64,000 bases of DNA from Loxodes magnus. Lineage: Eukaryota > Ciliophora > Karyorelictea > Loxodida > Loxodidae. Positions 3,641 to 61,048 of the stretch are shown piece by piece. The translations under genes were made by a program, and so were the position numbers. The stretch spans positions 496,001 through 560,000 of the forward strand of contig CAMPDV010000100.1 in NCBI GenBank assembly GCA_946699065.1. Reading direction: 5' to 3'. Within the stretch, counting starts at the first letter, position 1. Each line of letters begins with the position of its first letter. Below the pieces are notes generated by a model. The model saw only the letters and a program-made list of their open reading frames with translations, did not search any database and was not told where the DNA came from.

Positions 3641-5200
3641 CTTATATTTACACAATTCATTTAAAAAAAAGCAAATTTTCTAAAATCTATGTAATATAAT
3701 AAATGAATTAAAATGCAACAGTATACCTAAAATTAAACAGCTTTTATTAAAAATATCAAATTAAATTTAGATAATAATATCTATAATTTAATTACTTAGA
3801 GGAACTTAAATCACTTATAAATCATTTTTACTTAAAAAAATAAATTATAAAGGATACATAAAGGATTTCTTTCTTACTCATATTGCTAAAATAAATAATC
3901 TAGCATAATAATTCTTTAATATATAGATATTAAATCTTTTACTGATTAATTTATATAAAAAACAAACAATAATTGATTCTATTTCAATGCTAAGCAAGAT
4001 AATTTTAATCAATATTAAACATAGAAATTAGCTAAGTTATTTTAATTTTTAATGTTTCTAATTAGTTGTTTCTGAAATGCTAGGTTAAATTATGAGATAA
4101 GATGTTTAGTATTTTGTTTTTTGGAAAATAATTTTAGAATTTAGATAGTTGATGCTATTTTCAGAAATAAAAATTCTGCTAACCTTATTAATAATTCTAA
4201 ATTATTAATTAATATATTTTAATTTTGGATGTGGAATAGTTTATGCAGGATTAGAAATACAATTTAATAAATGATGATAAATATTTTTAATCCTTAAAGC
4301 ATTAATATTCTTCGTTATTAGAGTTGGCAATGCTTATTTTCATACTTATATACTAAATACATTGCTTAATAACTTATATAACGTAATTATTTTTGAGGTA
4401 AAGCTTTTGAGTAATTAAAACTAAATAAACATTTAGAAGTTTTATCTTATTATTCTAATATCCCTTTTTTAATGCTCTAATTATCTAAAATGTTTAATGT
4501 TCTGATAATCTAATCAATTTTAATGCTAATTTATTTTAAATTTATTATACCTTTTATAACTCTTTTCGCTTTCTTTTTTATACCTTTCAAAAATAAACAC
4601 TGATAGAGATATTCAAAAATATTAAACTATTAAATAAACTAGGTAATCAATTATTTAGTTATCTGTAACTCTTAAATTATCATTAATGATTATAATCATC
4701 CTACTATAAAGTTAGAATATAATTAGCAAAATAGAAAATTATTATATTTTAGATTAACTTAAACTTTCTTTATTTTTGAGGTATTAATTATAAAATAAAT
4801 TATTATATAACTTAAAGGATTAAGGAAGGAAAATTAAGGGATTATAAAAGTATTATTATAGCAAAGCATTAAATTCCTTAGGAAATTTAGAAGCAAAAGT
4901 TTGTATAATAAAAATAGTTTTTATCTATATTTAATTAATTAAATAATAAATTAAGTCTAACTAGCTTAATAAAAGTGGATATTAAATGTAAGTGTTGGGT
5001 TTTAATGAAGGCCAAATAAGTAAATTTTATTTAGCTAAAATTATGATTTATATTTTTTTAAAAGCTTTATTGGCTTTATATAGCTTCCTTTAAATAAATT
5101 AAAGAAGGAATTGATGATGAAATATTAGATAAGGAAATGTTAGAATTATTGATAGAGAAATCATAATAAATTTCATATTTTAAACTTAGATAAAGTCATC
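3641..5200. other. Intergenic A+T-rich DNA
   Basis: About 1.5 kb of very A+T-rich sequence separates the start of the minus-strand seven-helix gene from the end of the next minus-strand gene. I find no conserved protein motif, RNA gene or clear repeat here. It must contain the promoter of the gene starting at 3640. Confidence 0.5.
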
Positions 5201-5689
5201 TCAGGCTCTCTTGGCGAACTTGAAATCATTTAGAGATCCTTTTCTTAAAAGCTATCTTTCCAAGAAGCTCCATAGGTCAGGAGAATTTTCTTTTGTTGTT
5301 TGTCTCAAATAATCACCATTTGGAGAATCTTAAGTTAAAACTTCTTCCAAATATTCACATGGAATTGCTCTTGAATCCCACCAGTGCATTCCTACGAAAT
5401 AAATAACAACACTAAAAGCAAAGTTCTCCCTGAAACCGGCATGACCTCTAAATAATGCTGGTCCAATAACTCTCTTTCCGAGCCACCATGAACCTACAAT
5501 GAAGGGAATATTTATTAGAGCTCTTGTCCATAGTTCTCTTTCACCTCTAACTTTTATTCTATTCATTTCGAAATTGCTCATCTTTTAGGTTTCCAAAATC
5601 TAAAGCCATTCTTAGTATTAGTAATATGACATGCTTACGTAAGGCCAATGTAGTCGCCTTTAAAATAAGTCACTACCGGCTGTTGCCAT
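5201..5689 (-). CDS. Small conserved-looking membrane protein, possibly mitochondrial
   Basis: This is a 162-codon gene with an ATG at 5689 and TGA stop at 5201. The protein begins MATAGSDLFQRRLHWPYVSM and contains an arginine-rich stretch (RIKVRGERELWTR). Two hydrophobic segments follow (ALINIPFIVGSWWLG and ENFAFSVVIYFVGMHWW), then a polar, charged tail. The composition is richer in G+C than its surroundings and strongly protein-like, with many Trp, Gly and Arg, which argues for purifying selection. An internal ATG at 5581 also opens the frame, but the longer start is better supported because the upstream 36 codons read smoothly. I do not recognise the family. Its size, basic N-terminus and single or double membrane span resemble the lineage-specific accessory subunits of ciliate respiratory complexes, but that is a guess from features and not from homology. 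Confidence 0.75.
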
Positions 5690-9496: not shown

Positions 9497-12097
9497 ATGG
9501 AAGTAAAGGTTTAAAAAGTAGCTACTTTTAATCCTCTTAAGAATCACCATTTGATTAAGAATAATTTGCAACTATATTAGAACCAAAGACCTTAATCTGA
9601 ACTCACTCCTACCAGATTTACTAAGACTGAAACTACCCCTGCTAGAATTCAGCCTATTAATTCTGCTACAAGGCAAATGCCTTTGCATTCCTTTTATAAC
9701 TAGAACAAAAATTTTGCATTTGAATAAGAACAAAAAGAAAGACCGTTAACAGCGCTTATAAAAAGTCCCTAAATGATGTTGAATCAAAACAAAGGTAAAA
9801 CGTTAGTTCAGAAAAATGAAATTTAAACTCCTCATTCTTTCCTTATTAAAGATCCATATAAAAGGCAAGAAATAGATATATAAAAACAAAACTAAGAACT
9901 AAAAAAAATCTAAGTAATTACTAAGTAAAATTATAGAAACTACTTGCAATTCAAAAAAGAACTCGATGATGAAACTAAACATAGCATTGCTCAAAGAGCT
10001 AAAAGTGCGAAAATTGGACCTTCAGCACGTTAAGCAAACTAAAACGCTTTTTCATATAAATAATTGTAGCCAATAAGTAAATAAATTAATTTGTAAGAGT
10101 AATTTAAAAATTTAAAGCTATTAAGACTAGAAAGATCTAATAAGCAACTCAATGAAGTGACATAATTATTGAATTATACTTATTAGCTTCAAAATTAACT
10201 TAAGCCTCATTCTCCTTTTAGGTAGATTAAATCACCTTAAAGATAAATGCCAGATTATACAATTAATGTACCTAAATCAAGAGAAGTTTACCTAGGTATT
10301 AAAAAAATTGCAAATGCATTTCCAACTGCATAAAATGTGAGGCCTCAAACTTAATAATATTAGAAAACAGAAAACGTTTAGATCAAAAATCTTTATTTGA
10401 ACAGTAACAAATAAGCTAGACCAATTATGACAGCAGATCAAAAAATATTTGCAACTTAAAATCCAAAAACTACATTATACAGAGAAATCTTTGAAAAGAA
10501 AGATAGAAATGGTTAGACTTTATAAAATGATATATCTAATTCTTTAGCTTCTTTGACGAATTCCAACTTAAAAGATGCAACTAAGTTAAATGAATATATA
10601 ATTGGAAAGATTATAGGCTAAGGTGCATATGCAGAAGTAAAATTTGCTATTCATAAGCCTACGAATAAAAAGGTAGCTGTTAAGATTTATGATAAAGTTA
10701 AGCTGTTAGATCCTATTAAAAGAAAAAACGTATTTCGTGAAATTTAAATAATGATTAAGCTATCCCACCCGAATATAGCCCAATTAATAGAGGCAATTGA
10801 TTCCTAAAAGCAAGTAATTTTAGTTTAGGAGTTTTGTAGCGGAATTAGTTTACATTAACTATTAAAAAAATAATAAAATCGCAGAATATCAGAAGTCTAT
10901 GCTAAAAGGATCTTTTAACAAATAGTTTCAGGAATAGCTTATTGTCACAGTTTAGATATTTGCCATAGAGACTTAAAATTAGAAAACATTCTTGTTGATG
11001 ATGTTAATTATGCCGTTAAAATAATAGATTTTGGATTTAGTACTATGATCAATAGGAAAATTAAGATATTCTGTGGAACTCCTAGTTATATGGCACCTGA
11101 AATAGTTAACAAGAAAGAATTTTTTGGATAGCCAGCTGATATATGAGCTTTAGGAGTATTATTATTTGCTGTATTATGTGGCTTTCATCCTTTTAGAGGG
11201 TCTTCAGATTCAGAGCTTTATAAAAAAATATCTAAATCTTAATTTTCATTTTCAGACCATGTAAGTATAGCTGCCCGTGAGCTTATATCTAAAATGCTCT
11301 AGGTAGATCCACTCTAGAGACCTTTAGCAAATGAAATTTTATAAAACGCGTGATTTACTTAAGTCTAGCCCATCATATAAAAGGTATAAGCACCAGAAAT
11401 AGATAAAAAAATAAAATTTCAATCAGTTGATATAAAAAGGATGTTCCAGGATTAAGAGTTAAGCTTTAGAAATTAAATAGAAAACTAATTTAATGCCATA
11501 AGTCAAAAAAATAACTAAACTTAAATAGATAAAGTAAGTGAAAATTCTCTCTTAACTTCTAGCAAAAATATAATCTAAAAACTAGATGGAAATATAATAT
11601 GCAATATAGTAAGTTATTATTTTTCTATATTTAGATGAGACTGGGATATAGCGAAAGAGATATAATAAATCAATTAAAAGACCATAATAGTAAAATTTCG
11701 TAATTATACTACAAATTAAAAACGCAAAACACAATTTACTAGAATGGAAGGTTGACAAGTGGAAGTAACAAGAATTTTTCAAATGACGTTCTAAAAGGGG
11801 ATGATTTAATACAACATGAAATCAAAAAATTTCTTTAATTGTAACTTTAAATTATTGCAAAAATCTTATAAGCTTAATCATTAAATTGCTATATACGCTA
11901 AGTTTTGAAGAAGCTAGGTTATTAATATCATTTTTATGCTTAAACAGGTGCTATTAAAAGTTAGACCGATTATTAGAATGCAAGGAAAATTTAAAGTTTA
12001 AAAAAGCTAGAAATTTAAGTTTATTTAACTATAACTGTAAGGATTAAATAGGTTTAAAAGTATCTTAAATATCTTCGACGTATTTATAGGAAGGTGA
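9497..12097 (+). CDS. MARK/SNF1-family Ser/Thr protein kinase (paralogue 1)
   Basis: This is a cytoplasmic protein kinase of about 850 residues. A 365-residue N-terminal extension rich in Gln, Lys, Thr and Pro precedes the kinase domain. The glycine loop IGQGAYAEV starts near residue 373, the catalytic lysine is K396 (AVKIY) and the catalytic loop is HRDLKLEN with D492. The DFG motif is at residue 511, followed by CGTPSYMAPEI and DIWALGV, whose Trp is a TGA codon at 11144. After the kinase domain lies a UBA-like segment (IMRLGYSERDIINQL...LYYKLK), as in AMPK-related/MARK kinases. A 26-nt GT-AG intron (11609-11634) sits exactly in front of that segment. The last 250 nt need one further frame change, probably an intron near 11890-11910. 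After it the frame runs cleanly to TGA at 12095-12097, ending in a basic, hydrophobic stretch that could be a KA1-like domain. The next gene starts 14 nt downstream. A paralogue lies at 61049. Confidence 0.85.
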
Positions 12098-14780: not shown

Positions 14781-14811
14781 ATTGTAATTTTAATTAAAAC
14801 TTTAAATAAAA

Positions 14812-15168
14812 ATGGCATAGCATGAGAGTGAATTCCTTAAGCAATTGACTCAAGCAGAAATACAATCTAGAGAGATAATCGAGAAAGCTAAGCATGCCAG
14901 AGCTGAGCGTCTTAATGCAGCTAAATTCGACGCTTAGTCAGAAGCTGGAGAGCTTAGGAAAGAATTAGAAGAAAAATATCAAGCAGAATTGTCTAAGCAA
15001 GAATAAGATTAGCAGCTAATGGAGCTTCAGTAAGCTACTATGGAGGAAATAAACAATATAGAATAACAAACTAACAAAAACAAATCCAAAGTCATTGAAT
15101 TCCTGATTTCTAAAGTATTAGAAGTAGACATCAGTGTTCCAGCTGTTTTGAAAGGAGAATTTGCTTGA
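14812..15168 (+). CDS. VMA10: V-type H+-ATPase subunit G
   Basis: This is a complete 118-residue subunit G, the same length as animal homologues. It forms the peripheral stalk of the vacuolar proton pump, together with subunit E, on the cytosolic face of acidic organelles. The diagnostic N-terminal block is intact: ESEFLKQLTQAEIQSREIIE followed by KAKHARAERLNAAKFDA. A long helix of Glu/Lys/Gln follows, and the C-terminus holds a hydrophobic patch, VIEFLISKVLEVDI. TAG/TAA codons fall at Gln positions. The ATG lies only 31 nt after the stop of the coiled-coil gene, and the TGA at 15166 is followed by A+T-rich DNA. Confidence 0.9.
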
Positions 15169-21758: not shown

Positions 21759-23252
21759 ATGGAACTAAAAGAGGAACTGATTATGAATAAAAAAAGTGAA
21801 CTACATAAAATTTGACTTGTAGGAATCAATAAAGAAAGCAAAAAAATTACTGCTAAAGCATTGCACAAGATGAATTTGATTAATCTGACATAATAAATTT
21901 AGAATTTTCCTTCAAAATCTCTGAAACTTAAATCAAATTTGCTTTTTGGGTTAATTAAAGTTCATTCTCTTATACTAGAGAGATGGATTATGCTTGCAAA
22001 TAAACTCCAAGCTGAAATTCAGTTTTGTTTTTAGGATAGTTAATTAAAGAATAGCAACAGAGCTAACAATAAATAAAGAAGAAGAAAGTAAAAAGATATA
22101 ATGAAAACTCCTATTTCACTGCAAGACTAACTAGGAATTTAAATAGATCCATAAAAGACAATAGAAAATTAAATGTCTAATGTTAAATTGATGCAAATTT
22201 TATCTACTGCTTATACAATCAATTAAGGAGATTCTAAGATTTAGTAAAATAGCACTGGTGACTTGAAATAACCTTAGTTAGATTTCAATCAATAGAGCTT
22301 TGGTCTTGACTTCGAGTTTGAAAATAACTTAAACTAAATATAGAATTAAGCTTAGTTATAAGACTCAAATTTGGATCAGATTTACATTAAAAATGAAATG
22401 GACGATCAAAATTTATAGAGGGATATTGAAAATTTCAGCAACAAGAAGAAACTTAGAAATAACAAAAAGGAAAGAAATGTTATTGATAATGAAATTGACT
22501 TGAAAATTTAAGACCCTAAAAATAGAGAAATTCAAATAAAGAGTTTACTCAAATCTAAAATGGATAATTTGACACAATCTAACATGGATTAAGCAAAAGA
22601 AATATTTCGTCTGCTAGTTGCTCCTTTTTAGCCAACAAATGAGATAATAAGAAAAGTATAGAAGCAATAGTAAATTTTATTAATGACAACTAATGACCAG
22701 AATATAATTAATTTTCATTATTAAGACATAAATATAATGAGTGAGCAGTAGAGTTTTTATTTGAATGACTAGGAATAGTAGTTGTAAGGTACTTCAGAAA
22801 AAGATCAATTAAGTAAAGAAATTTTATAGATATTTTCTTAAAACTCAGTATAAAGCAATGCAAAAAATTTTGAAGTTTGCTCTACATTTATGACATAAAT
22901 TTAATTTACTTAAGAAAATATATAAATGACTGCAAGGAACTGCTATGTTAAAAGTCAAAAAGATAAAGAAGTACTCAATTATTTAATTAAAAAGTAGAAA
23001 AGGTAGAATAAAGATTTACTTGCCTTAACTGAAATAAATAAAGGCTGTAAAAGAAATACAGCTTCAAAGTCATTTTTGTCTTTATTATTTCTACAGGCTA
23101 CTGGAGATGTAAATTTATATTAGCAAAGTCTAAATACCTTTGAAGACATTTCAATATAAATAACTAAATTGGGTTATGAAAGCATCGAAAATTGCAAATC
23201 TTAGAGCAAATGGCTACTTGACACTAATTAGAACGCAGGAGTTACATATTGA
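21759..23252 (+). CDS. Kleisin subunit of cohesin (Rad21/Rec8 family)
   Basis: This 497-residue kleisin would close the SMC1-SMC3 ring of cohesin in the nucleus. The N-terminal Rad21/Rec8 domain is recognisable from about residue 12: HKIWLVGINKESKKI and ALHKMNLINL. These are followed by LLFGLIKVHSLILER, equivalent to the family's LLLG-V-RIY block. The key Trp is a TGA codon. The central 300 residues are divergent, acidic and Gln/Asn-rich, as usual for the family. The C-terminal winged-helix block is present: TASKSFLSLLFLQATGDV, then LYQQSLNTFEDISI, matching the F-LL-LA...L-Q...F-DI-I pattern. No intron is needed. The start lacks the common MFYS beginning; an upstream exon cannot be excluded. 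It is shorter than animal Rad21 and could be mitotic or meiotic; sequence alone does not decide. Confidence 0.8.
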
Positions 23253-44689: not shown

Positions 44690-47600
44690 AAAAAACTCTT
44701 TTAGTTTAAATTTATTTATTTATTTCTTAACTATTTCTTTGTTTTAACTGGAGTTAATTTACTTAAACTCTTCTCTTTGTGAATTCTAGTCCTCACTATA
44801 ATGAGTTTAATTAAGAGTATTATCAACTATGCTTTGATCATTATCTTTTAGTTCTTCTATTAGAAATATATGCTATATATTGAAATCTTTCTGTATAATA
44901 TTTTCTTTCTTTAATTGAAAATCAATTTACTAGTATCCAATTTTATTTTTAGTAATCATTAAAGTTTCATTACAAAAATCCTATTCAATTTCAGTTTTTC
45001 TTCTTATTTCTTTAAAAGTCCCCCTTTATCAAATACCATTCAATCTTTATCTTACTTCATATATATTTATCTAATTTATCAGATTCTAGTATTTCAATAT
45101 TCCTGCTATGAAAAAGTAATAATTTTCCGCTGCTTATTTATAAAATCCTTTTAAATCAGTATTTATAAGAAGGAATAATTCAATCTCTTTCAAGAATTTA
45201 TTTTCCTCCTTTTTATTGAAACGTTAGAACCCTTTTTTACTTAGTTTTCTATCTAAATCTAAATCAAAAAATGTTTCCTCTTTATTCTCTTTTTTATCCA
45301 TTTAAAGCAATTGCAAAAGTTTCTATTTACACTTACTTTAACTTCTGCCCTTCTTATTTATCTCTTTTTCTCAATTTTCTATAATATCATTTAAGTTAAT
45401 TTTCCCTTTCAAGCAGTTAAAATAGAAATATAATTTAAGTGATTTAACTTGAGTGTCAGTGCCATACAAAAAGATAAGTTAACAAATCCAAATGACAATA
45501 AAGTAGCAGTTAGATAGTAGGAGTAAGATAAAAGCAATAATATCAATGAATAAATATCAAAAGCCAGAATCAAAATAAATCCCTAAATATAGAATGAAAG
45601 CTGATATGGCTAGGTAGCTTATTTCCAGTTGATTCAAGTCTCTTTTAATATAAGGCTAATATCTTATTTAAATTAGGATACAGCATACTAATATCAAAAT
45701 CAAGCATTGAAACTGGAAATTAATGTAGTTTTTGAAGAAATACAAATACTAAGGAAATAATAAGCTTTTGGTATAATTGAAAAGATGGTGGGAGCTGAGA
45801 ATGACCTTCGTGACTAAAATTTCTGGTTTTATGGCTAGGAGCAAGTTCCTTTCCTGTCGCTGAGAAAGTCCCTGGTCAGAGTCATTTTCTGAAGGGAACA
45901 CTGTCTTTGAGATTATCCACTCTTGGTAGGGGCTTGAAGCCTGGCCGCTCATAGCGATGGAGCTCCCTAGCAGCTATGCCTGGAGCACAACAGGATATCC
46001 CCGTTATTCCATAAAAAGAGAGCGTCGGGTCGTGCAATCGGAAGGAGTTTCCGGCCCAAAAACTTTTTTAGTTGAAATTAATTAATAAGCTTTTGGTAAA
46101 TCTTAACAAACTCTCAGAAATAAAACTCTTCTTTATATCCTATAAAAAGAAATCCTAGTTAAGACTTTATTAGATAAGACTTTAAGATCCTTTGTTTTTT
46201 GTTTAAGTATATGATTACTATGAAAGGAATGAAGAACCCATAAAATAATAAACTTGGTAAGTCTATTTTTAAGGTAAATCGAAGATGATTTCCCGCTCAA
46301 CAAATTATATCTGGATAAGAGTTTAAAGCTTTTACTTTTTTTGATATGTTATAGCAGCTAAAGACACTTAAAATTTCTTAAATTAAGTTAGAAAATATTT
46401 AGAAGAAGGAAACACTAAGAACTGTGTAAAAATAGATTTTTTAAACGCTTTTTTTGTTATTAAGGATATAAAACATAAACATATAAGGTTTATAACTAGA
46501 ATAACTAAAGGAAAGAGTAGGTTTATCATTATTTAACTGTAATACTTCTCTTCTCCTTCTTAATAAAAGAATTCAAATCTAAAAATTTAAGAAGTAACCT
46601 CATTGTGTCCTTAATTCAGTTAAAAGAGCTATACAACTGAATTTGGCCAATTGAACTTAAAATTTTATATCAAAACAGAGAACTGCATATAATTAGTCAA
46701 AATTTTGAAATAAACTCCATAGTAAGAATCTTACTTTTTAGCTTGGATTAAAGTCTAGTATACTAATCAAATAACGAATGATATGAAGATTATTATTGCA
46801 ATAACAGCTACTGATATTCCTTTGCTCTTACTAAAGCATTTTTGACATTTTTTAGATCCATCTTTTGTTCAATTTTATTCACACATATCACATAAATTCC
46901 CTCTAGCCTTTTACACAATTTCCTTATCAATTTATTCCTTTTCTCATTTTTTATTTTTATGCTTCATCTGCTTCTTTTAGGTAGTTGTAAACAAAGTCCT
47001 GATCTTAAGAATTGCCTAGACGTGCTTAAGGAGTTGGACATTCATGTATTCAATCTTTCCCTTCAATATCCTCTATTTGGTACAATTAAATTATCTCCAA
47101 ATCATTTAGCTCCTTTTCAACATTCTTTACAAGTGAGTTTATTTGATTTTAAGGAATATTATCCATAATAGCAGTTTTAACACTATTTGTTATCTATCAA
47201 AATTTATCCCTCAAGACATTATTGCATTCATACTTAAAAGGTAAATTAGTCTGCTATTTGTTTATTAGGAAGATTGTTGATATTTTTAATAGCGGCAGTT
47301 TCTAAATAAATATTGACATATGAATTTGGCTTTGCTCTTATTATTACATCGCTAAATTACCTTGAAACGCAGAAATTCTGGTTTTTCCTGATATTTCAGT
47401 GTTGTCAACAAAAACTGTTGCAGAAGATGAATCATCCGTTTTAGCAATTTATCCGAAGTTATCAACTATATATATAGGATGCAATGAACTAGGAAATCCA
47501 GGCAAATAAGATTGTAGTTGTCTCTAAATTTTTTGCTTTTAGCAATTAAACAGAGTATCAGATGAAAATGAACTACTTAAATTTTAAGCAAAAGAAGCTA

Positions 47601-52463: not shown

Positions 52464-54230
52464 TCATTTTAACACATATTTTGAGAGAATATCGTTTAGC
52501 TCGCTTAAAGAACTTGCACACTCTTGCATAAGCGGTTGATAATCAGTTTCTGCAGTTTTGCTTTCAACGAACTACTTAAGACTAAAAATGTTTTGTTCGT
52601 TATTAAGTAGCTTCTTTTCTATTTCTAATAAGTCAGTATGAATTTTATTATTCGCGAGTTGCTATTATTTTGTATCTAGTTTATGTTTAAGAATACGGTT
52701 CTATATAAAAGCTTACTATTTAGGACTGAGTGTCTTTACGTTGCTATAATTTAGATCTTTCTTTAATAAATCTGTTTTTTTCTTTTTCAACTAATGCTTT
52801 CATCTCCTCTATTTTTGAAAATTTATTGTCAATTTCAGTTGCCATTTACGTCTTTCTTTCTTCTAATTACTCCATTTCTTTACTTATTTTAGAATCAAGT
52901 GTATTTATTTTTTCTAAGTCTTTAAGTCTTTCCTCTCTGTCCATTTTAAGTCTTTCAAGAGTTACAGCACTAAATTTGGCTTAGTCTTACTATATATTAA
53001 AAATCTTACTTTAAATTCATAGTCTTGCTTCCATTCATTAACATTTTCTGCTGATGGAATGTTATATTATCTTTCAATATCTTTACTTTACAAACTTAAA
53101 ATTGCGATAATATTTTGCTCGAGCTGGTTCATTTAATTTAGTTCTTACTGCTTAAGGCTTGCGAAGGAATCTATAAAATCTGTCATTTCTTGATCTCTTT
53201 TATTTAGTTGCTCGATTTTTTTAGCTTCTTCTTCTCTTTATTAGGCTCCAGGTTGATTTTGCATATCTGAACTCATTTATTTAAGTTGCTAATGATAATT
53301 TGCAATGGCTGCTTTTACTTCGTTAATTCTTCTTTCAGATTGTTGAATCTCATTGTTAATTTCTTTTACTTTTGCAAGTAATCTTTCTCTTGCCTATGGG
53401 AAACTTAAATTAAGTTCACCAGTTTAAATCTCCAGTTCTTCCTTTTTAATTTGTAGTTGCTACTTTTGCTACTTGAGAATATGTGCTCGTTCTCTCAAAG
53501 GATCCATTTTTAACCTTTAGTCAGCTATCTGTAACTTTTAGTTAATTTCTTCCATAAGTGCTCTTTTATTTACAATATCTTGTTGTAGCATTTGATTTTC
53601 TTGCTGCAAAACTTCGTATTCTCTTCTAGTTTCTGGATCGAGAGAGCCAAGTTTCATTTCGGCTTCTTAGTTAATCATCATTATTTAATGCTCCATTTCT
53701 TAAATTTACTCCTCCTGCTGTCTTCTTTCTATAAACATATCATCCAACTATTACCTATATCTTTCGTTCTAAAGCTACACATGTTCAAACATTACGTAAA
53801 TATCTTCTGGTCTAGTTTCTGTTCTTTGTTTATCCAAAGTTAAGTTGAAATCTGCAAGTTCTCCTTCAAGTTTTCTAACTTCCATAATTAATGCTTCATA
53901 TTTTCTTTCCAAAGTATTGAATTCTTAGTTATCATTTTGTATTTTTTCTCCTTCTTTTTTAAATTGATTCATTTCCTAGTCTAGTTCCTTACATTTCTAT
54001 CTAAGAGCGTTCAAATAATAAGTTTTATCATATACTTTTCTTCCTGGGCCGCTTGGTCCTGTCTTAAGTCCTATACCTTGCTGAGTTACTGGTCTATCTA
54101 CTATATGCAAATCCTGCTATCCAACAGAGATATAAGCATTTTAGTCTTTTTATCCAGTAGGTTGTCTATAACCCGAAGGGGCGCGTTTTCCTGTGCCAGT
54201 CCTATACGCAGTCGGAACTCGTTCTGCCAT
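52464..54230 (-). CDS. IFT74: Intraflagellar transport protein IFT74
   Basis: This complete IFT-B subunit of about 576 residues is close to the roughly 600 of animal IFT74. It pairs with IFT81 and helps carry tubulin into cilia. The basic, Gly/Arg/Pro-rich N-terminus (about residues 1-45, PTAYRTGTGKRAP) is the tubulin-contacting tail. The family signature follows: VDRPVTQQGIGLKTGPSGPG then RKVYDKTYYLNALR. The rest is a continuous coiled coil, with conserved IYVMFEHVQLQNERYRQQLDDM and PSAENVNEWKQDY. Two GT-AG introns are required and give a clean frame: 52990-53009 (20 nt) and 52701-52716 (16 nt). The start ATG is at 54230 and the stop TGA at 52464. The gene is markedly less A+T-rich than its surroundings, consistent with strong conservation. 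The finding also implies a ciliated host. Confidence 0.92.
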
Positions 54231-54730
54231 TATATTAATCTAAAAACATCAGTTACTTTATAAAAGTAATTGAGACTTAGTTCAAAATAGCTAGCAAATA
54301 TGAAAATTATTAAACATTCTATCTTTATTTTTACTCTTCTACCTCAACACTCTCATATAGCACGCTTCTATTTATTATTCTCTATGCTCTAATAAGTAAC
54401 CCTTTACTATTCATTCGCTTGTTATAAAATAGTATCTTATACTTTGGTTTGGCTTATAAAATATTAATATGAATTCGGTTAAGAAAATGAAATAGAAAAT
54501 TAGAAAATCTAGCAATGTTTAGCATCTTTAAAATTTAGCTTTAGTAGCATTATAAGCATGCATAGTTATCTTACAGTTGATATACAATACAAGCAGCACT
54601 ACAACTAAATAAATTTCTAAATTAATGGCACAATCATCATTATTAGAATTATTAGTGGCTATATACTCTGTAACTAAAAGAATTATTTCTTTAAAAATAG
54701 AAATTAAATTATTATAATGAAATTGTTTTA

Positions 54731-56841: not shown

Positions 56842-59770
56842 TCAAATTATAAACAAAAGGTTATATTATAAAGTAATTTTGGATTTATGATCAATAAAGC
56901 AATTAAGTTATGTAGTTTGGAAAGCTATTAAGAGCATATTAATCTAATTGCTTTGTATACATTTGATTTTATAATAGCTTGATTAAATTGTGTTGGGTCT
57001 GAGTATTTAAAATTAAAATTAATTTTAGTTTTCTACTGGAGGATTCTCTTTTTTCTAAGCTTCCAAAAGCTACTCTATTTCTCGCATAGTTTCAAACTGA
57101 ATATGAAAATTTACTGAAAGACCAGTAGGTCTGCTTGGAGTATTCATATGAAGTTAGATGTTTAGTTAGTTCGTAGTAAAGAGAGTAGGCTGTATTCTTA
57201 TGAAATCGGTTAGTTCAATTTCACTTGTATTAAGCATTTGTATCCAAGTTTTGATATTCTCTATAGTTTAATTTTAGGACTGTAAGATAAAAATAGCTTA
57301 CAATTAAAGTAGAACCAAGTTCGTTTTAAATAAGTTTTACACCCTTTAAAAGCTTTTCATATGTCTCTTCATTAATATCTCGAAACTCTTAGATTTTTTC
57401 AAAAAACAAGAATTGAAGGTTTGAGACCACTTCATAATTAAGCTTATCTAGATCTTTTTTGTCAAGAAAGCTTTTAATCTCTAGAAGAATATCTTTGAGT
57501 TGGTTGCAAATAATAGATAATTATTGCTTAGATGTTAGCGTAAAATAGTTCTTCATTAGTATGTTGCATCTAATTATTATCTCTCCTTTGATTCATTGAA
57601 ATATTGTGTCATTTAAAGAAATTAGATCATCAAGAATTCCTCTAAAATCTCCTGGAAGTAATTCGTTTTCGTAAAACTTTTCTTCTTCTGTCTCAACTAC
57701 TTCGATTTAGGATTTAACAGAATTCTTAGAAGTTACATTTTCCTTTTCATTTTGGCTTTTAAACTTGAATACCTTCTATTTTATTTTTTATCCCAACTTC
57801 TTGAAAACGTTTTTTTTAGGAACTTAAACTTTTTCAGGCGAAGCTAGTTCAGATTAAGATTTAAATTAGCTACTAGTTTTGCTGAGGTTATAGTCAATAG
57901 AGTTCTTTTATACAGGTTCAGCTTCTAGGAGAATTTTAGCGTTCTACTCTATAAAAGTGATAAAATCTTATAGTTTTTAGTTTAAAGAAGCAAAAAATAC
58001 GAAGTGAGAAATATCCAAAATTTGGGTATATTGCTTTAGATCAATTTTGAAAATAACCTGATTCCTAAACTCTAGAAGTACCTAGTTGTTTTAAATGATT
58101 TCTTGGTAGAAAGAGGAATCTAAACCTATTTTACTCAGATTTTCCTTCAAAAAATGCTCTATTTGTCTAAGTATTAAAATCAGTACTTTGCTTAACTCCC
58201 AGTAAAAGTTCTAAGGCAATATTTCTATAAAGTCTATAATTTGCTTTATACTTTCTTTTAGCTTTTTGAAAGTTTTGATCTATGGTGGTTTGAACCACTC
58301 GCTTTAGAGTAGTATTTCCTATACAATTCTAATAGAGTCAAGCTAGTATCTGCTGAAGAATTCTTACTGGATAGTTTCAATTGACTCATTTATGATTTGC
58401 GAGTGTCCTTTTACAAACTAAGTTATGGATTGGATGTAATTCTATATCTGCTTTATTTCAAATGGAAACAAAAACAAAGGACATTGAAACTTGCTAAACA
58501 GTTGAGAATAGTTGACAGATCTTGCGTAAGGCTCGTTAGAAATTATTTATAGTTCTGAGTAAGAAGACATCATTTGCTTATTACCTGAATTCAAGAACAT
58601 ATCTTTAAAATACAGACAAAGCTCGAATTGAATTTGGTTCCATAAATTGCTAATTTTTAAAACTACGTTCTTTTTTTCGTCTTAGATTTGCATTTCATTT
58701 AGTCATAAAATTATTTCCTAAAAGCGATTTAAAATTCTAGCGGTCAAGCCAAAAATGTTATAAACCAGAGCTTAAAATTAAGATTTTTCTTCTTTGGAAG
58801 GAATCTTTAAAACTTCATCAAACTAAATGCTTTTCCTTAATTGTGCTTTTTAGTGAAATTATTCAGGTCTTGGTGTTTCTGGTATAAATATTTAGACCGT
58901 TTCCAAAATAAGCTTAGTCATGTTTTTAAAGCTCATAGCTATTTCAGGAGCAAAATTGTCTCTTAAAATGTTAGGGAGTCGATAAATTCCTTCCATGTTA
59001 TTTAAAGCTTTCAAAAGAATTGGGATTTACGAAACTTCGGCATCTCGTTCATATTCTGCTCCTTAGATCTAAGAAATGTCGAAATTCTACGCTTATAAGA
59101 ATTTCTCAATATCATGATCATTAGTAATAGCGTTAGTTTATTATACCATAGTGTCCTCTTTTTCATATAGAGTATTATAGATCTATTAAACAATTGCCTA
59201 TGTAATTGTGTTATTTCTATTCTAGAGTTCTTAAGCTAATATGTTATTGATGAGAGGAACGCTGTTATAGAACTGCTTTTATAGCAGAAGACGATTATAG
59301 ACTTTATACTTGAAAGTGGCCTTTATGAATTGCTATTCTCTTACTAAGTCATCCAAAGTTTATGGAGCGCATAGAAGTTCATTAGCCTCTTAAAGGATAT
59401 TGAGAGCTGTTTTAACATATAAGCTCTAATGCCAAATCTAACTAAGATTGATTCTTCTCTCTTTTAAAACTCCTTTGCATTAACTTAGAGTCTCTCTTAA
59501 TTTATGAATGTCATTCAAGATAGTTCCTAATTATTCACTTAGTGGCTCTGCTTTCGTAACAACCAATCTTAAACTATCATGCTACTTTGACGAAGTTTCA
59601 GAAACTTCCTAATCTACAAGCTTTTTAGTTTCTTGCAATGCACTATAAGAATCTTCTAGATTAGTGTTAGATTCTGATAAGATATAAAGCAACTCCTCAA
59701 GTGGATTGAAATTATCCTATTTTAAAAATCTAGGATGAACTGATCTTAGTACCTTCTCAGTATTTTCCAT
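56842..59770 (-). CDS. Probable exocyst subunit SEC8/EXOC4-like protein
   Basis: This is an all-alpha protein of about 900-970 residues from ATG 59770. The N-terminal 180 residues follow the exocyst/CATCHR pattern. A coiled coil (LGTILNDIHKLRETLSQCKG) is followed by WHQSLYVKTALNILQEANEL, then a Pro-containing turn (CAPQTLDDLV) and EQQFIKATFKYKVYNRLLLQ. These match the EXOC4 arrangement of tethering proteins that dock secretory vesicles at the plasma membrane. Long alpha-helical bundles continue throughout, with TGA-coded Trp in several places (IILWLNE, IFQWIKGE). A 22-nt GT-AG intron (57280-57301) links ELGSTLI to the C-terminal block with TDFIRIQPTLFTT and RPTGLSVNFHIQFETMREIE. The frame stays open to TGA 56842, but convincing coding ends near 57035. 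The family call rests on pattern, not on a computed alignment; another CATCHR-type tether is possible. Confidence 0.6.
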
Positions 59771-61048
59771 TAAGTAAATAATCTTAATATAGCGCTTTTT
59801 TAATTAGCCTATTAACTTATAGAAAATCACTTCAAACTCTAATTCTTTTATAAATATCTGCTTCTCTTGCTATCCTATTTTCTAATTATACTACCACACC
59901 TTTAATAAATCAAGGAGCTTTATCTATTTTAGTATTGATAATTTAGAGCACTATGAAGAAATCTATAATGTAGATAAGTTGTGGATAAGAGCAATACTTC
60001 TAAATACTTTCATCATATGAAACAGCATAATCTTAGTACATTCTGACTTAGATTTTACTATTTGGGATTATAATTAAAGTAGTTTCTATATTACTAAAAA
60101 CTATTAGAACATATCTTTAAAAGCTATTGTATAGAATCCTAGAACATAATTAAGCATTTCTCTTTAATATTAAATTAGTTCTTAATCTATTGGTTTTAGT
60201 AGTTTTTAAGTATATGTAAGCTACTAGTTTTTTAGTATATATGATAAGAAGTATTCTTTATATATCTATTTCAATTTCTGTATGCTTATAATACTTACAT
60301 TTAAGTACTTTACAATATTTATTAAATAGCTCTTTTGGAGACTTTATTACACTAGTTTGCTAGCTTGTCTAAAATATATTTTATCCTTGAATCTTATACT
60401 AAGAGTTAGCTATTGAATATTTACCAATCGTTAAGCTCTTAGCAATGAATACCATTTTTATTAAGGCAATATTGCTTCCTATCATATCATTGTAATTCTA
60501 CTATATTAATCTTAGCTACAAAGAGTCATATTTTGAAGTGTAATTGCTACTTAAAAGCTAATCTTAATTCATACAAAATAATTTCATCTTTTTAAATCCA
60601 AAAAATGAATCTACTATAAGACTAAAGGATAAGAATAAGAGATGCAAACTAGAGAGTATTACAGCGAATATATGGAACTAACTAGCATCAAGCTATAAAG
60701 CAGGGCTATGTGAAATAACAGCAGTTTCTATTTTTAAACCCTTAGACTAATAACTCACTTAATAAAACTATTAATAATATTAGACCTACTACTGCTCAGT
60801 GAAGTCTAACTTAAACTGGTAGCGTCTTCAGAAAATAACGTTACTTTTAATAGATTCAAGATTAGCAAGCGTAGAAACCTCCTACACATGTTGTAAGACT
60901 TGCTTAATAATTGTAAAAGAAGTAAGACTGCAAAGACTCTAATAAGAATGCTCCTTATTCGAGAATTTAAAAGACAGAAAGCTAAAAAAAGGTTTTCTCT
61001 TGTAAAAAAGAAGTGATACGATAATAAATACTGTAGGTACCTTATAAA
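59771..61048. other. Divergent intergenic region
   Basis: About 1.3 kb between the SEC8-like start (-) and the kinase start (+). It should hold both promoters. From about 60800 the plus strand reads as an open, Gln/Lys-rich frame continuous with the kinase, so an upstream exon with an earlier start is possible. Confidence 0.45.

Follow-up and report, generated by a model that had tools for sequence, protein, structure and literature searches.

The segment at positions 45774–46082 of the window (the whole 64,000-nt stretch of the Loxodes magnus genome analysed here) is very probably a short, non-autonomous SINE-like retroelement that inserted recently, mobilised by target-primed reverse transcription through a LINE of the same genome. 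It comes from a young family with two expanded subfamilies. The element works like a SINE, and its strict membership in that class hinges on the promoter and on the origin of the head. A SINE inserted by target-primed retrotransposition had been one of the two proposals of the initial annotation of the window. Support for it comes from thousands of copies with fixed ends, from locus-specific duplications of 12–21 bp and a tail of (TTAA)n, and from paralogous genes that have the empty site.

The insert and the interrupted gene

The insert is delimited by two perfect copies of a 16-bp direct repeat, TAATAAGCTTTTGGTA, at 45758–45773 and 46083–46098. When the whole window was scanned, this was the sole exact 16-mer repeated at a distance of 250–400 nt. 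The 309 nt between the repeats (45774–46082) have a GC content of 46.3%, and a 274-nt core within them reaches 50.7%; the non-overlapping 309-nt stretches of the window have a maximum of 38.2% and a mean of 25.0%. The description of a GC-rich insert between perfect repeats is thereby borne out, as is the predicted shift of the reading frame, since the spacing of 325 nt is not a multiple of three. The next GC-richest spots of the window, at about 54000–54250, 5250–5550 and 14800–15050 (39–42% in 200-nt windows), are not copies of the element, and no second copy was found within the 64 kb.

The window copy is a full-length member of subfamily 1 with full-length matches elsewhere. It lies on the plus strand, antisense to the host gene. 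Its 5′ end is formed by the block TAATTGAAAAGATGGTGGGAGCTGA (45774–45798), which changes little among three sequence groups in our alignments. The 3′ end, AGTTGAAA, is followed by a TTAA-type tail (together 46070–46086), the last bases of which overlap the duplication by microhomology.

The interrupted gene-family region (45374–46498) is on the minus strand and is read from high to low coordinates. Excision of the insert together with one repeat joins ...FYFWEFVKIYQKLI to ISLVFVFLQK in the frame of the paralogs, and the joined frame at the site, FYFWEFVKIYQKLIISLVFVFLQK, agrees with theirs, for example FYFWEFVKIYQKFVISLVFVFLQK in paralog L117. Compared with L117, the window copy has 17 gap positions altogether, and single bases are missing at about 45735 and 45718, which is 38 and 55 nt beyond the insertion site in the reading direction. 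Past these positions the host family sequence runs on in a different frame. The initial annotation had stated that collapsing the repeats restores a continuous family sequence; this holds locally, at the join, but not farther on, as bases are missing there and the frame differs. The host gene copy in the window is probably degenerate and decaying, or else the assembly has errors there. No domain was recognised when the translated host region was compared with Pfam, and the designation as a "beta-helix" gene is not confirmed. Elsewhere in the window, frame 9497–11143 (+) contains a protein kinase domain and frame 58706–60481 (−) a Sec8 N-terminal domain, and frame 21816–23249 (+) has a Rad21/Rec8-like match under the curated cut-off.

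The assembly was searched for an empty site with a query of 800 nt made of the joined flanks, with one repeat kept and the join at position 400. Two of the 41 matches are the window locus itself, found in two pieces. The other 39, several of which are probably duplicates of one another, are 67–71% identical to the query, and each of their ranges spans position 400. By the listed coordinates the difference in length between each of these ranges and that of the query never exceeds 5 bases, and the insert is therefore absent from all 39. Four paralogs (L117–L120) were aligned over 60 columns round the join: three are gapless and L118 has one single-base gap. An allelic empty site was not found in the assembly by the joined-flank search. 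The lack of an empty site in any relative had been named beforehand as evidence against an insertion; the paralogous genes have such a site.

Copies, target-site duplications and age

The assembly comprises 705,730,643 bases in 7,843 contigs, and the window corresponds to C100:496001–560000. A search with 45758–46098 returned 1,648 first-look candidates. The best 40 were scored, and all 40 are near full length. Besides the window itself, 39 of these best 40 matches are 96–97% identical and extend from query positions 9–19 to 328–337 of 341, which covers the block but little of the 16-nt repeats. Since the matches start at query positions 9–19, the 5′ copy of the duplication (45758–45773) is missing from the other element copies. 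A 24-mer from the element, with up to 3 mismatches, occurs at 4,643 places (2,352 + 2,291), and its reversed control at none. A 27-mer specific to subfamily 2 occurs at 1,555 places (789 + 766; control, 0). The subfamily-2 consensus differs from the 24-mer at only two positions, so the count of 4,643 should take in subfamily 2. The two subfamilies are about 81% identical, as judged by the subfamily-2 copy L109 against the first consensus and by alignment of the consensus sequences. At 309 nt the element is within the size range of SINEs (under about 500 nt); it is non-coding and dispersed in many copies. The initial annotation had named the lack of other copies as a refuting outcome, and there are thousands with fixed ends.

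For analysis of the insertion scars, the subfamily-1 query gave 46 loci, made up of the 40 best genome matches, five 24-mer matches and L109. Twelve loci that had a 5′ flank in common with another were dropped, leaving 34. Flanking repeats reach a score of 12 or higher at 25 of the 34 loci, compared with 0.7% of 1,122 mismatched flank pairs. The remaining 9 loci fall below this threshold, with scores of 4–11. At the 26 loci where the score is at least 11, the repeats are 12–21 nt long. For subfamily 2, flanking repeats of at least 12 were found at 10 of 12 loci and in 2 of 132 mismatched pairs; two of the 12 loci lack one. Target-site duplications specific to each locus are thus found in both subfamilies. 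At each of the 26 listed sites the duplication starts with two A/T bases, its exact boundaries being blurred where tail and target are identical. L109 is nested in the tail of an oppositely oriented copy, and its perfect 21-bp duplication is made of that tail.

The 3′ tail is of the type used by LINE enzymes. It consists of a TTAA repeat; 32 of the 34 loci show a legible GTTGAAA(TTAA)n, with n between 0 and 4, mostly 2 or 3.

The copies have diverged little. Forty of them, some being duplicates by flank, show 3–10 differences from the consensus per 310 positions, and the window copy has 7. Thirteen subfamily-2 copies show 1–9 differences per 307 positions. Many copies of both subfamilies are only 1–3% from their consensus, and G-to-A or C-to-T changes account for many of those listed, read by eye. 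The low divergence is in part a product of choosing the best-scoring copies, and the full family may be older.

Candidate LINE partners and mechanism

LINEs are abundant in the genome. The RVT_1 domain gave 3,403 first-look candidates, and the best 150 were scored and lie above the cut-off without exception. Three groups were seen, LINE-A, LINE-B and LINE-C. The 3′ end of LINE-A is a hairpin followed by (TTTA)n in 28 of 30 rows, and the group was rejected as a partner on account of this tail. All 20 fetched 3′ ends of LINE-B, and those of L079–L081, carry ATAATTTAATT and then TTAA and/or TTTA units; this group encodes an AP-type endonuclease domain (Exo_endo_phos, E = 2.5e-12). LINE-C (L093/L184) has an RVT_1 domain (E = 3.7e-32), and its 3′ region yielded 994 first-look candidates. 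All 20 fetched LINE-C ends, as well as L093, finish in TTATATTTTAATTA and short TTAA runs, some of them having flanks in common. LINE-C was located at 1–1230 of the oriented L093 and in L184 (C910). In the LINE groups L128–L147 with L079–L081, and L049–L078, a predicted hairpin directly precedes the short tandem-repeat tail. On C5131 and C20, LINE reverse transcriptase domains recur at steps of about 2.5 kb, in the manner of a tandem array.

The element was compared with the three LINE ends against 500 shuffles. With the tail included, the score of subfamily 1 was reached by 42, 0 and 1 shuffles for LINE-A, LINE-B and LINE-C, respectively, and that of subfamily 2 by 1, 2 and 0. With the tail left out, the corresponding numbers were 437, 69 and 163 for subfamily 1 and 84, 102 and 39 for subfamily 2. 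Outside the tail, similarity between the element and the LINE ends is not clear, and LINE-C and the element have only the tail in common. Judged by the tail unit, LINE-C would be the best candidate partner, and LINE-B a possible one. The upstream regions of LINE-A and LINE-B copies (7 regions) do not match the element and were rejected as a source of its head.

SINEs with short tandem-repeat 3′ tails are moved by LINEs. The element resembles them in being about 310 nt long, non-coding and high in copy number, with fixed ends, long locus-specific duplications, a short-repeat tail and LINEs in the same genome. It differs from them in its internal T runs and in having neither a recognised tRNA, 7SL or 5S head nor an A or B box above chance. 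In the mechanism that we infer, the intermediate would be an element RNA that is structured in its 3′ part and finishes in a few UUAA repeats. A LINE partner in the same genome would provide the reverse transcriptase and endonuclease that take up this RNA. The endonuclease would nick an A/T-rich site, the UUAA tail would pair with the nicked strand by microhomology, and reverse transcription would begin there. Repair would then leave the 12–21-bp duplication.

Head, structure and alternative readings

The initial annotation had called for a check of relationships to tRNA, 7SL, 5S, RNase P and MRP RNAs, and no such ancestry was found with Rfam or with the genome's own SRP and MRP RNAs. Rfam gave nothing for the whole window at the gathering score. 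At E values up to 10 it gave three weak matches in 45500–46400, none of them within the element, and six in eight loci with related copies, all in the flanks. No tRNA was predicted by ARAGORN anywhere in the window. The genome's own SRP RNA occurs at 26 places, all on contigs C421, C273 and C93; four element sequences have no similarity to it above shuffles (43–240 of 300 reach the score). The MRP RNA of the genome itself was located at two places and its P RNA at a single one. RNase MRP had been suggested as an ancestor by a word resembling the CR-I motif. It was rejected, as the genome has an MRP RNA of its own and the similarity is unconvincing: in four tests altogether, the score was reached by 45 (plus) and 13 (minus) of 300 shuffles for subfamily 1 and by 34 (plus) and 179 (minus) for subfamily 2. 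A head from tRNA, 7SL or 5S RNA was thus not found.

A Pol III origin, which defines a SINE in the strict sense, would be putative here. In four sequences the best combined A- and B-box score was reached by 106, 185, 167 and 173 of 200 shuffles, where the boxes of the host may deviate from the consensus. Runs of four or more T occur inside the element. The run of six T at 46064–46069, a possible Pol III stop by its sequence, is located upstream of the mobile 3′ tail, and a Pol III transcript would therefore need read-through.

For the structure comparison, 14 sequences from three groups were used, and the consensus structure was predicted from the same alignment. In this prediction 97.1% of cells are paired, compared with a shuffled mean of 89.7%. 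Changes on both sides are seen in 16 of 54 pairs (mean of shuffles 12.1, with 6 of 500 reaching 16; slid controls 1–3), and further pair types are not raised (38 compared with a shuffled mean of 41.7). Paired changes among the groups, representing three lineages only, also affect the predicted hairpin near the 3′ end (helix 11, 46037–46054). These counts, with three lineages behind them, are suggestive of a conserved RNA structure of the element. The window copy has an unremarkable folding energy (z = −0.90; 18 of 100 shuffles are as low).

The third group of this comparison (minus strand 234–542 of L093, and L095–L108) is 66–70% identical to subfamily 1 and was used for structure only. It was rejected as a further mobile subfamily: the 15 fetched copies have common flanks and have therefore apparently multiplied inside a larger repeat. 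In places they are spaced by about 8.7 kb (C910, C731). In one of them, L104, 21 nt of the 3′ hairpin are duplicated locally.

As a tentative proposal, which we regard as possible rather than probable, the head may derive from an unknown structured RNA of karyorelict ciliates other than tRNA, 7SL, 5S, P or MRP RNA, perhaps not transcribed by Pol III. The element would then represent a SINE superfamily of new origin, spreading openly in the somatic genome without programmed elimination. An unrecognised GC-rich head with paired changes bears on the question of SINE origins.

Short non-autonomous LINE derivatives are known from trypanosomes (RIME) and Leishmania (SIDER). A derivative of this kind, with a head taken from a LINE end instead of a small RNA gene, would be mobilised by the same route, and this reading overlaps with the SINE-like one. 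It would account for the lack of a known small RNA as head, for Pol III boxes at chance level and for the tail common to the element and LINE-C. Because the element matches neither the upstream regions of LINE-A and LINE-B nor any LINE downstream end beyond the tail, we consider such an origin unlikely. A set of genes for a functional structured RNA, as opposed to a mobile element, is an extremely improbable reading of the copies: their GC richness and the paired changes across three sequence groups would fit, but they are dispersed in thousands with locus-specific duplications, one has inserted into a gene, the folding energy is not below that of shuffles and no Rfam family corresponds to them.

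The other proposal of the initial annotation, an internal eliminated sequence (IES), would make the block a germline segment that is normally cut out during macronuclear (MAC) development and was retained here. The direct repeats do contain TA, and removing the insert with one repeat gives a locally paralog-like sequence. However, the block is present in an assembly that we take from its size to be MAC, and hence in the soma; its thousands of copies have long repeats that differ between loci; and no canonical IESs were found according to the accessible portion of the L. magnus paper (PMC11441545), which lists a MAC assembly of 706 Mbp and a micronuclear (MIC) assembly of 848 Mbp. We therefore find this reading unsupported and very improbable. 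A miniature inverted-repeat DNA transposon (MITE) is equally improbable. MITEs are short, non-coding and high in copy number like the element, and are abundant in the related ciliate Blepharisma, as far as the accessible text of PMC9942856 goes. Against this, 45600–46250 contains no inverted repeat pair, terminal or other, and locus-differing duplications of 12–21 bp next to a one-sided TTAA repeat of variable number misfit a DNA transposase.

In the open-licence full texts of PubMed Central, no paper combines SINE and Loxodes. The term SINE is absent from the main text of the L. magnus paper, whose supplements may hold the family (PMC11441545), and from the accessible text of the Blepharisma germline paper (PMC9942856); its two occurrences in PMC3464196, in the portion available, are the mathematical word and were set aside. 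The Blepharisma BogoMITE is likewise a young, high-copy, short non-autonomous element of a related ciliate but, from what is given there, derives from a DNA transposon and is excised as an IES (PMC9942856). The non-LTR retrotransposons of L. magnus could supply the enzyme in the same species and differ from the element in being 5–6 kbp long and coding. The sections available of the L. magnus paper report that mobile elements are kept in the somatic nucleus, that most interspersed repeats are unclassified and that haplotype-linked indels are bounded by TA-containing repeats (PMC11441545). For part of this unclassified fraction the element supplies both an identity and a mechanism, and its insertion junctions are clean. 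The spread and tolerance of short retroelements in a ciliate without extensive genome editing become testable, as does the question of whether such elements explain part of the haplotype-linked indels described there (PMC11441545).

Putative SINEs are also described in Paramecium (PMC5405496; PMC6586856, both as far as accessible). Those of P. tetraurelia were recognised by being repeated and non-coding, and they are proportionally most abundant in the MIC-and-PGM compartment outside MAC-destined DNA (0.53% compared with 0.04%), according to the parts available of PMC5405496. By description, these are likewise short repeated ciliate elements without coding potential, whereas the Loxodes copies are present in an assembly inferred to be MAC and come with target-site duplications and an empty site.
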